DNA of 64,000 nucleotides, from assembly GCF_014673215.1 (NCBI RefSeq), contig NZ_JACWMS010000005.1:310001-374000 (forward strand). The letters are read 5' to 3'. This document shows, piece after piece, positions 29,288-35,004 of this stretch. Made by a program: the position numbers and the translations under genes. A model generated the notes under the pieces. That model did not search any database. It saw only the letters and a list, made by a program, of their open reading frames with translations, and had not been told where the DNA came from. This stretch comes from Gordonia hankookensis. GTDB lineage: Bacteria > Actinomycetota > Actinomycetes > Mycobacteriales > Mycobacteriaceae. Every line of letters starts with the position of its first letter. The first letter of the stretch is position 1.

Positions 29288-29329
29288 GATGTTCATCGTG
29301 CTGCGGTCGCACCCTCGCCCCCGTCTCGG

Positions 29330-29335
29330 TAGCGT
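29330..29335 (+). promoter_or_regulatory. Leaderless -10 (TAGCGT) of glgP
   Basis: TAGCGT, then seven bases, then the GTG at 29343. It supports that start over the ATG at 29289. Confidence 0.55.
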
Positions 29336-29342
29336 CGACGCG

Positions 29343-32003
29343 GTGAAAGCCTTCCGCCGGTTCACCGTTCGGGTGCCGTTACCAGCCGAGCTCACCGACC
29401 TCGCCGACCTCGCCCACAACCTGCGCTGGGCGTGGCACGCCCCGACCCAGGAGCTATTCGCCGCGATCGATCCGGCGCTCTGGCACGACACGACCGATCC
29501 GCTACGACTGCTCGCGGAGGTGGACCCGGACCGCATCGCCGAGCTGGCCCGGGATCATGCCTTCCTCGACCGACTCGCGATCGTGCGTGAGGATCTCGAA
29601 CGCTATACGAGCCGACCCCGGTGGTTCGGTGACTATGCCGACCACCTGGGACCGGAAGCCGTTGCACCGCAAGCCATCGCCTATTTCTCGATGGAGTTCG
29701 GCATCTCGGAGGTGCTACCCATCTATTCCGGTGGACTCGGCATCCTCGCAGGCGACCACCTGAAAGCCGCCTCCGACCTCGGTCTGCCCCTCGTCGGCGT
29801 CGGCCTCTTCTACCGCTCGGGCTACTTCCACCAGAGTCTGTCCCATGACGGCTGGCAGGTCGAGCGTTATCCGGTCAACGACCCGACGTCACTGCCGCTG
29901 AGCATCCTCGCCGACGACGACGGTCCGGTCGTCGTGACGATGTCGATGCCGGGCGGCCGGACCCTCGACGCCCAGGTGTGGGTGGCGACAGTCGGCCGGA
30001 TCCCGCTCCTGCTGCTCGACTCCGATCTGCCGACCAACGACGAGGAACTCCGCAACGTCACCGACCGGCTCTACGGCGGCGACCAGGACCACCGCATCAA
30101 GCAGGAGATCCTGCTCGGCATCGGGGGCGTACGCGCGGTACGGGAGTACGTCCGGATCAGTGGGCACGCCGTCCCGACGGTGTTCCACATGAACGAGGGA
30201 CACGCGGGGTTCCTCGGCGTCGAGCGGATCCGGGAACTGTGCAGCGATCCGGCGCCGGGAGCGACCGACTCCCTCGACTTCGACACGGCGGAGGCCGTCG
30301 TGCGGGCGTCGAACATCTTCACCACCCACACCCCGGTACCCGCCGGCATCGACAGATTCCCGCTCGACATGGTGCGCTACTACCTCGACGCCGACGACGC
30401 CGGGAACTCGCGGTTGGTGCCGGGGCTGTCGGTGGCCACTGTCCTCGACCTGGGCGACGAGGCAGATCCCGGCGTGTTCAACATGGCGCACATGGGCTTC
30501 CGGCTCGGGCAGCGGAGCAACGGCGTCTCGCAGTTGCACGGTGCGGTCAGTCGTGAGATGTTCGCCGACCTGTGGCCGGGTTTCGACGCAGGTGAGGTCC
30601 CGATCGGAGCCGTCACCAACGGGGTCCACGGACCCACCTGGACCGCCAGGCGCTGGCAGGAACTGGCTGTGGACGACGGGGACGGCGCCGCCGGGGTCGT
30701 CGCGGGGCTTCCGGCCGACGATATCTGGGAGATCCGCTCGACCCTGCGGGCCCGGCTGGTCGACGAGGTGCGTCGACGCGCTCACGCCAGCGGCCGTGAC
30801 CGGGGGTTCACCGACGCCGAACTGGGGTGGACGGGCGACATCTTCGATCCGACCGCACTGACGATCGGCTTCGCCCGGCGAGCGGCGACCTACAAACGAC
30901 TCACCCTGATGCTGCGCGATCCCGAGCGGATGCGACGTATCCTCACCGATCCGGATCGCCCGGTACAGCTGGTCATCGCTGGTAAGGCACATCCAGCCGA
31001 CGACGGCGGCAAGGCACTCATCCAGCAGGTGGTCCGGTTCACCGACGACCCCGGACTCCGGGACCGGATCGTCTTCCTCCCCGACTACGACATCTCGATG
31101 GCGCGCGAGATCTACGCCGGCTGTGACGTCTGGCTCAACAACCCGGTTCGCCCGATGGAGGCCTGCGGCACATCCGGCATGAAGTCCGCCATGAACGGCG
31201 GCCTCAACCTGTCCATCCTCGACGGTTGGTGGGACGAGATGGCCGACGGCGAGAACGGCTGGGCGATCCCGTCCGCGGAGGGTGTCGCCGATGAGCACCG
31301 ACGCGACGATCTCGAGGCGGAGGCGCTCTATTCGCTGCTCGAGGAGACCGTGATCCCGATGTTCTACAACCGGTCGGTCGCGGGTGTGCCCGAACGCTGG
31401 GTGGAGATGGTCCGGCACACGCTGAGCAGGCTCGGGCCGAAGGTCCAGGCGTCGCGGATGGTGCGGGACTACACGACCGCCCTCTACGGCCCTGCTGCCA
31501 CACAGTTCGCCTCCATCTGCGCGGACGGCTTCGCACCGGCGCACGATCTCGCCGACTACCGGCACCTGCTCGATCGGAGCTGGCCCGCGGTGCAGATCGC
31601 CGGCATCGACGAGTCGGGATCCGGTGGCTCCCTCGTCGAGGGCAGCCCGCAGCGGGTGAGCCTGACGCTCACCGCCCACGTGGCGCTCGGCGAGCTGACG
31701 GCCGACCGGGTGCGCGTCCAGGCGCTGGTGGGCCGGGTGACCGACGACGGCGAGATCATCGATCCGGTGATCGCCGAGATGACCCCGACGGCCGGTACCG
31801 ACCCGTCCGGGCGCACGCTGTTCGTGGCGACCGTGTCCCCCGCCCGATCCGGCCGCCACGGATACACCGCACGGGTGCTGCCCCGGCATCGACAACTCTC
31901 CGACGACGCCGAGCTCGGTCTGGTGCGCTATCCCGTCGGGACGGCCGCCGATGCCGGACCGGCGTTGGCCGGAACCGTCCCGGTCTCCGGCGCACACTCC
32001 TGA
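29343..32003 (+). CDS. glgP: Alpha-glucan (glycogen) phosphorylase
   Basis: A PLP-dependent phosphorylase (GT35) that releases glucose-1-phosphate from glycogen or maltodextrin in the cytoplasm. The 886-residue protein starts [31 protein letters not shown], the DUF3417 region of actinobacterial GlgP. It then shows [37 protein letters not shown] and the PLP-lysine region [23 protein letters not shown] (Lys near residue 614). A C-terminal beta-rich extension of about 150 residues is usual for this subfamily. The gene sits alone on the plus strand between dop and arc, splitting the proteasome locus. Confidence 0.94.
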
Positions 32004-32079: not shown

Positions 32080-33903
32080 CTACAGGTACTGGCCCGTGTT
32101 GGTCTCGGTGTCGATCGCACGGCTCGCGCCTGCGCTCTTGCCGGTGACCAGCGTGCGGATATAGACGATCCGCTCGCCCTTCTTGCCCGAGATCCGGGCC
32201 CAGTCGTCGGGATTGGTGGTGTTCGGCAGGTCCTCGTTCTCGGCGAACTCGTCGAGGATCGAGTCGAACAGGTGCTGCACCCGAAGACCTGGTTGGCCGG
32301 TGTCGAGCTGCGACTTGATCGCGTACTTCTTGGACCGGTCGACGACGTTCTGGATCATCGCGCCGGAGTTGAAGTCCTTGAAGTACATGATCTCCTTGTC
32401 GCCGTTGGCGTAGGTGACCTCCAGGAACCGGTTGTCGTCGCTCTCGGCGTACATCCGCTCCACGACCCGTTCGATCATCGCGTTGACGCACGCGGTGCGG
32501 TCTCCGCCGAACTCGTTGAGGTCGTCGGCGTGCACCGGCAGCTGCTCGGTCAGGTACTTGGAGAAGATGTCCATCGCAGATTCGGCGTCGGGGCGCTCGA
32601 TCTTGATCTTCACGTCGAGCCGGCCCGGTCGCAGGATCGCCGGATCGATCATGTCCTCGCGGTTCGATGCGCCGATCACGATGACGTTCTCGAGGCCCTC
32701 GACGCCGTCGATCTCACTGAGCAGCTGCGGCACGACGGTGGTCTCCACGTCCGACGAGACGCCGGACCCACGGGTCCGGAAGATCGAATCCATCTCGTCG
32801 AAGAAGACGATCACCGGGGTGCCCTCGGACGCCTTCTCCCGGGCCCGCTGGAAGATCAGTCGGATGTGACGCTCCGTCTCACCAACGAACTTGTTGAGCA
32901 GCTCGGGGCCCTTGATGTTGAGGAAGTACGACTTCGCCTCTTTCGCGTCGTCGCCACGCACCTGAGCGATCTTCTTGGCCAGCGAGTTGGCGACCGCCTT
33001 GGCGATGAGGGTCTTGCCGCACCCCGGCGGGCCGTAGAGCAGCACACCCTTGGGCGGGCGCAGTGCGTAGTCGCGGAACAGGTCCTTGTGCAGGAACGGG
33101 AGCTCGACGGCGTCGCGGATCTGCTCGATCTGGCGACCGAGTCCGCCGATGTCCTCGTAGCCGACGTCGGGGACCTCTTCGAGGACCAGGTCCTCCACCT
33201 CGGCCTTGGGCACCCGCTCGAAGGCGAAGCCGGCCTTGGTGTCGATGAGCAGCGAATCGCCGGGGCGGAGTTTGCGGCGCTTGCCGTCTTCACCGTCGAC
33301 CTCGCCCATCAGCGGTTCGGCCAGCCAGACGACACGTTCTTCGTCGGCATGGCCGACGACGAGCGCGCGACTACCGTCGCCGAGGATCTCCCGCAGCGTG
33401 CTGATCTCGCCGACGGAGTCGAACTCACACGCCTCGACGATGGTCAGCGCCTCGTTCAGCCGCAGGGTCTGCCCCTTGCTGAGCGACTCGACGTCGATGT
33501 TCGGCGAGCACGTGAGCCGCATCTTCCGGCCGGAGGTGAACACGTCCACGGTGCTGTCGGGGTGGATGTCGAGGAGCACGCCGTAGCCACTCGGCGGCTG
33601 CCCGAGTCGGTCGACCTCCTCACGGAGTGCCACGAGCTGCTGGCGGGCCTCTTTGAGGGTGTCGAGCAGCTTCGCATTGCGCGCGGTCAGGTTGTCGACC
33701 CGTTCCTGCAGGTCCTTGGGGTCGGCCGGCCTTGCGAATGACGAGCGTTGCGAGTCCGGACGCGCGACGGGCGACGCATACGCGGGGATGAAACTCTCTT
33801 CGGGCATCTGTGCGGACTCATCGCGATCGGATCCGTCGTCGTGCGCACCCGAGGACCCGAGGCGGTCGGCGCCGCTGGCGCCCTGGCGGTCAGATTCGGT
33901 CAT
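32080..33903 (-). CDS. arc: Proteasome-associated AAA ATPase Arc/Mpa
   Basis: The hexameric ATPase that binds Pup, unfolds pupylated proteins and feeds them to the 20S core. Of its 607 residues, about 60-100 form the N-terminal coiled coil ([36 protein letters not shown]) that grips Pup. Two OB folds follow, then the AAA module with Walker A GPPGCGKT (about residue 290) and Walker [12 protein letters not shown] (about residue 371). The last residues GQYL are the gate-opening motif that docks into the proteasome alpha ring. A GGAG-type ribosome-binding site precedes the ATG. It lies downstream of trmI, separated by a 195-bp leader with repeats and a hairpin. Confidence 0.97.
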
Positions 33904-33921
33904 TGCTGACTCCTCTCCCCG

Positions 33922-33949
33922 GCAAACACTTCTCTCATGGAGTGTTTGC
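33922..33949. repeat. Hairpin in the arc leader
   Basis: Perfect nine-base arms gcaaacact (33922-33930) and agtgtttgc (33941-33949) around a ten-base loop. On the arc mRNA it ends just before the GGGGAGAGGAG ribosome-binding site, so it could tune arc translation or stability, or act as a protein-binding site. Function is inferred from position only. Confidence 0.6.
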
Positions 33950-34024
33950 GCCGTAACACCACGCTACCGGTGTGGACCGGAAAACGCCGTGCACCGCGCG
34001 ATTCACGGTGTTGACGGTCTGTTA

Positions 34025-34030
34025 AATGTA
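34025..34030 (-). promoter_or_regulatory. Possible -10 (TACATT) of arc
   Basis: TACATT on the minus strand in the most AT-rich part of the trmI-arc gap, about 120 bp before the arc ATG. It directly abuts the phased repeats at 34030-34060, which fall where the -35 region would be; no standard -35 is seen. Confidence 0.4.
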
Positions 34031-34060
34031 CGTATTCGCAACGTATTCGCGACGTTTCGC
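34030..34060. repeat. Three helically phased direct repeats upstream of arc
   Basis: acgtattcgc at 34030-34039 and 34041-34050, then the shortened acgtttcgc at 34052-34060. The period is 11 bp, one DNA turn, so all copies face the same side of the helix. They lie immediately upstream of a possible arc -10, the usual place for an activator bound cooperatively. Confidence 0.75.
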
Positions 34061-34098
34061 GCGGTAAACCCCTTACGCCCGCGACGAACGCAACACGC

Positions 34099-35004
<906 letters not shown>

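Follow-up and report, generated by a model that had tools for sequence, protein, structure and literature searches.

A conserved array of five pentamers upstream of the proteasome ATPase gene arc in Gordonia and its candidate regulator GlnR

The region between trmI and arc in this Gordonia genome holds a genuine and conserved regulatory array, which is larger than the three-copy repeat that a first-pass annotation had described at this place. Judged from the sequence, its five units are probably half-sites for an OmpR-type response regulator at arc, most likely GlnR. The best reading is thus that arc may be a new target for a known kind of regulator.

An array of five AC-ending pentamers between trmI and arc

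The arc gene (mpa; 32080-33903, minus strand) codes for the proteasome ATPase, with Pfam proteasomal ATPase OB domains and an AAA domain, and is presumably the regulated gene. The upstream gene trmI (34099-34995, minus strand; Pfam TrmI-like_N and GCD14) is read in the same direction, and the gap between the two is 195 bp. Two Pup-ligase-family genes, two proteasome subunit genes and WYL-domain pafBC genes are located downstream of arc. A convergent glycogen-phosphorylase gene (29289-32003, plus strand) intervenes between arc and the dop/proteasome subunit/pafA/pafBC genes, so that arc belongs to a separate operon.

The tandem repeat in the gap is real (34030-34060, near-perfect). On the plus strand its three copies read ACGTATTCGCA (34030-34040), ACGTATTCGCG (34041-34051) and ACGTTTCGC (34052-34060); the first two differ at one of 11 positions, the third lacks one A, and the period is exactly 11 bp. 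Adjacent 11-mers matching at 10 or more of the 11 positions were found at this single place in the 64 kb window (the whole stretch of DNA analysed), and such a match is reached in 0.2% of dinucleotide shuffles of the gap. A search for the repeat elsewhere in the genome, as the first-pass annotation had proposed, gave no additional copies of the tandem genome-wide with up to 2 mismatches allowed, so that it is not a dispersed repeat. Near-identical 10-mer copies are limited to this species and those closely related to it, and most other Gordonia have AAGAC as the third unit. A palindrome-like sequence, GTTTCGCGCGGTAAAC (34054-34069), overlaps the first pentamer here and is not kept in most relatives.

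The tandem is part of a larger element on the arc strand (34010-34058), which consists of five AC-ending pentamers at an exact spacing of 11 bp and reads, in the direction of arc, GAAAC-gtcgcg-AATAC-gttgcg-AATAC-gtacat-TTAAC-agaccg-TCAAC-A. With both strands of the window considered, five AC dinucleotides in an 11-bp register occur once, namely in this array, and a run of this kind with any period from 8 to 14 is seen in 0.16% of gap shuffles. To follow the element in relatives, 36 Gordonia genomes were aligned across the gap. All five pentamers lie on the minus strand. The AC is present in 31 of the 36 genomes in pentamer 1 (GAAAC, 34054-34058), in 33 in pentamer 2 (AATAC, 34043-34047) and in 30 in pentamer 3 (AATAC, or AAGAC in most relatives; 34032-34036). 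Pentamer 4 (TTAAC, 34021-34025), the first half of the core box, is identical in 36/36 and kept in two more genera; for pentamer 5 (TCAAC, 34010-34014), the second half, the AC is found in 32/36, and the two further genera have TCAAC or ACAAC. One step outside the array an AC occurs in only 2/36 and 0/36 genomes, compared with 30-36/36 inside. The mean information content, in bits per base, is 1.52 for the array, 0.44 from trmI to the array, 0.99 from the array to the -10 element and 1.79 in the -10 element itself.

The best conserved part is the pair TTAAC and TCAAC, which lies at or beyond the edge of the interval considered by the first-pass annotation. In one Gordonia subclade the upstream pentamers have decayed and TTAAC-n6-TCAAC is intact, from which we conclude that this pair is the core and that the tandem repeats are auxiliary. 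The array is absent from 14 small-genome Gordonia.

The arc promoter and the position of the array in other genera

According to the first-pass annotation the repeats abut the -10 element of arc, which does not agree with the conserved promoter. The predicted -10, TAGCGT (33961-33966, minus strand), is located within CCGGTAGCGT and 43 bp beyond the last pentamer (CCGGTAGCGT itself about 45 bp downstream). It is invariant in the 36 aligned Gordonia and the same element occurs in several other genera; CGGTAGCGT precedes arc in many Mycobacterium, Rhodococcus, Nocardia and Skermania loci. In several compact Gordonia, which lack the array, the trmI stop codon TAG forms the first three bases of TAGCGT. 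The wide conservation of CCGGTAGCGT/CGGTAGCGT together with this overlap led us to place the -10 at 33961-33966 and the predicted transcription start at or near 33954 (an A, minus strand), which would give a leader of 51 nt. With this start the AC dinucleotides lie approximately 101, 90, 79, 68 and 57 bp upstream and the core box is centred near -63, so that the array does not abut the -10. The position of CCGGTAGCGT thus makes it most likely that arc transcription begins about 75-105 bp downstream of the repeats. The absence of a standard -35, also pointed out before, is supported by a consensus scan of 33850-34200, which found no sigma-70 promoter with -35 and -10 hexamers 16-18 bp apart.

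The ribosome-binding site GGGGAGAGGAG (33910-33920, minus strand) is nearly invariant in the Gordonia alignment. In the leader, GCAAACACT and AGTGTTTGC (33922-33949, minus strand) can pair as a 9-bp hairpin that directly follows the predicted start and borders on the ribosome-binding site. For most Gordonia a leader hairpin can be drawn, with differing sequence and length, and single folds do not clearly outperform shuffled sequences (z -2.0 to +0.7).

The first-pass annotation would have given up the repeats if they were not conserved even in close relatives; the array is kept in Gordonia and its core pair in two more genera. This pair, TTAAC-n6-WCAAC, recurs in the trmI-arc gap of nine genomes from a second genus, the sequences of which match two named Williamsia loci, and of one genome from a third; the reversed control pattern gave no match in 351 genomes. 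In Gordonia, and in those sequences of the second and third genus in which it was counted, 43 bp separate the last pentamer from the -10. The proposal of a helically phased activator arrangement is thereby supported, since relatives retain the 11-bp register at the arc promoter. In another genus, three genomes carry CACAATTAACCCTTCGTCAACA, which is very like the arc core box, away from arc, near the 3' end of an apparent acyl-CoA ligase gene on the other strand.

A second search used a GlnR-type box, GNNAC/T-n6-GMAAC, at any spacing of 12-42 bp to CCGGTAGCGT; the consensus was our own choice, the single preferred spacing was not. At spacing 28 the box was found in most sampled genomes of one genus, with sequences as in named Nocardia loci, and also in Skermania, Antrihabitans and two further genera; one genome had it at spacing 29 and scattered others at different spacings. 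The gene arc lies directly downstream in 28/28 checked loci at spacing 28 or 29, compared with 0/2 checked at other spacings. Spacing 28 to CCGG places the box 32 bp from the -10, which is shorter than the 43 bp of Gordonia by exactly 11 bp. Thus, the register to the polymerase is kept, and the position of the box differs by one helical turn. The boxes of Nocardia, Skermania and Antrihabitans share with the Gordonia array the gene arc, the CCGGTAGCGT promoter and the helical phase; they differ in being single boxes 32 instead of 43 bp from the -10, with no upstream array seen. Weak evidence comes from counting AC by phase in 52 arc promoters of genera other than Gordonia and Williamsia: the highest count is that of the 32/43 register (42, with a mean of about 25 per phase), another phase reaches 37, and the rows are related. 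In many mycobacteria a block like TTAACAGTG...GTGTGTCGAAT is present upstream of mpa. It sometimes contains a TTAAC at exactly the Gordonia distance from the -10, 54 bp, and the AC of the second half-site is missing.

GlnR and other candidate regulators

Binding of M. smegmatis GlnR requires AC/T-n9-AC, and altered A residues or spacing abolish or diminish it (PMC3662644). The arc array agrees with the AC-n9-AC rule, with five AC in register, and resembles actinobacterial GlnR arrays in having several AC-ending pentamers in an exact 11-bp register upstream of a promoter; the S. coelicolor a-b-a-b box, for comparison, is gTnAc-n6-GaAAc-n6-GtnAC-n6-GAAAc. For M. smegmatis, t/gTAAC-n6-Gc/aAAC is given as the consensus (PMC10704036); the arc core pair fits it, save that the second half-site begins with T instead of G. 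Relaxed at this one base, the consensus becomes KTAAC-n6-KMAAC; the core fits it and the upstream AATAC units do not. This pattern has 10 exact matches in the 5.2 Mb genome, compared with 7 for the reversed control, and they include glnA1, glnT beside amtB, an aminohydrolase gene and arc; some of the others are inside genes. In the window no exact GlnR-type box other than that of arc was found, the dop-pup-prcBA part included.

The genome encodes GlnR: the best PDB matches of the protein are solved GlnR-type regulators (8hih, 9e-114; the GlnR structure 4o1h is also matched). GlnR-type sites are likewise present at genes that are members of the GlnR regulon in M. smegmatis, glnA1 and glnA2 (PMC4950008). 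Gordonia glnA1 has a conserved array of four pentamers, GTAAC-n6-GAAAC-n6-TTGAC-n6-GCAAC, in the 11-bp register. At glnA2, GTAAC-n6-TTAAC is found in every genome sampled (GTAAC in two compact genomes); the box GTAAC-acggat-TTAAC is almost invariant there and adjoins a predicted -10. The glnA1 array is like the arc array in genome, strand logic, 11-bp register and conservation across Gordonia, and unlike it in having four half-sites, a first pair that is a perfect GlnR consensus, and a much higher score with a position weight matrix. This matrix was trained on the glnA1, glnA2, glnT and aminohydrolase promoters with arc left out. Among 127,958 positions scored with it, the arc core pair comes fifth, with 11.9 bits compared with 24.0 for glnA1, and the three upstream arc pairs score near or below zero. 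Thus, the tandem repeats are not canonical GlnR half-sites, and the low scores suggest that affinity at arc may be moderate and the auxiliary units unusual.

The arc array also departs from known GlnR arrays in other respects. Its target is a proteasome ATPase gene and not one for nitrogen assimilation, it has five half-sites, the upstream three lack the leading G/T or the usual spacer, and it lies further from the -10. The core half-sites (about -68 and -57) are further upstream than the GlnR sites of M. tuberculosis glnA1 and glnA2, at -37 and -30 (PMC4950008). The main texts of the M. tuberculosis and M. smegmatis GlnR studies do not mention mpa as a target. We found no report of GlnR at arc or mpa in the open-licence literature, supplements aside, and one may exist elsewhere.

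The near-twin of GlnR, the OmpR-family regulator MtrA, is a serious rival because its motif is almost the same; it was described as nearly identical to that of GlnR (PMC6277429), and MtrA binds GlnR boxes in Streptomyces (reviewed in PMC10704036). The genome encodes an MtrA-like protein, its identity assigned by eye from the sequence. The motif of MtrA consists of direct repeats of G-T/A-n-A-C/T in the same 11-bp register (PMC6265350), and shares with the arc array the direct repeats, the register and the NNNAC core. MtrA binding would tie arc to cell-envelope and division signals, or the two regulators might compete for the site. We consider this unlikely. Most arc pentamers lack the G at position 1 and the T/A at position 2 that are preferred by MtrA: one of the five begins with G, and only GAAAC fits the letters of MtrA, although all are in its register. 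TCAAC, for which Skermania and two other genera have GCAAC, carries a C at position 2 that fits Gc/aAAC of GlnR and not G-T/A-n of MtrA, and a motif shared with glutamine synthetase promoters fits a nitrogen regulator. The MtrA consensus GTNAC-n6-GTNAC was too degenerate genome-wide, being nearly self-complementary, to be informative. GlnR is therefore favoured over MtrA as the activator of arc in the best reading of these data.

The misfit of the upstream units could also be due to another direct-repeat activator, a different OmpR-type, a SARP-type or a so far unrecognized protein, with the likeness to GlnR sites being convergent. The genome encodes 14 proteins with a Trans_reg_C-type domain, and AATAC/AAGAC, together with the conserved sequences beside them (TCGCG, GTTGCG), are not matched by the Gordonia GlnR matrix. 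Nevertheless, the most conserved part of the array is the core pair, which does fit GlnR, and canonical GlnR-type boxes are present in the equivalent place in other genera, so that such an activator appears improbable. The dedicated arc regulator suggested by the first-pass annotation is likewise not supported; the array is more likely to be bound by a global regulator, GlnR.

NnaR as the regulator was rejected, as its palindrome CTCAC-n16-GTGAG (PMC6277429, PMC11162112) is absent from the trmI-arc gap by reading of the sequence.

It is very improbable that the repeat has no regulatory role and arose by local slippage duplication or belongs to a trmI terminator or an RNA structure, which would suit the narrow distribution of the near-identical copies but not AC positions kept over three genera at a fixed phase to the -10. 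An explanation at the RNA level was rejected, because RNAalifold gave no consensus structure for 34 distinct rows on both strands and an Rfam search returned nothing credible; no terminator-like site was found in the array.

A possible link between nitrogen shortage and the proteasome

With one half-site every 11 bp, consecutive GlnR monomers would all be bound to one side of the helix. Under nitrogen shortage, when it is active, GlnR might occupy the core TTAAC/TCAAC first and spread cooperatively to the upstream AATAC and GAAAC units as weaker auxiliary sites. There it could help RNA polymerase at a promoter with the -10 TAGCGT and a poor -35, acting as an activator and not as a repressor. 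We regard the chances as about even that GlnR directly activates arc in this way in Gordonia, Williamsia, Nocardia and related genera, via boxes phased 32 or 43 bp from the -10. Scarce nitrogen would then result in more proteasome ATPase and in recycling of pupylated proteins.

Mycobacteria need the proteasome under nitrogen limitation (reviewed in PMC8223512). In the open-licence literature, reviews and GlnR papers describe no direct transcriptional link from nitrogen sensing to the proteasome genes (PMC8223512, PMC4950008). If the proposal is correct, the array would connect nitrogen starvation, by a direct transcriptional route, with the recycling of proteins by the proteasome; this connection would be absent from the small-genome Gordonia and is unreported in mycobacteria. 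The boxes before arc are also a case of a regulatory box shifted by exactly one helical turn between genera. The position of the array points to control of the ATPase, through which substrates enter, in addition to control of tagging, and the presence of GlnR-type arrays before arc in several genera makes the link between nitrogen and the proteasome testable in soil strains.
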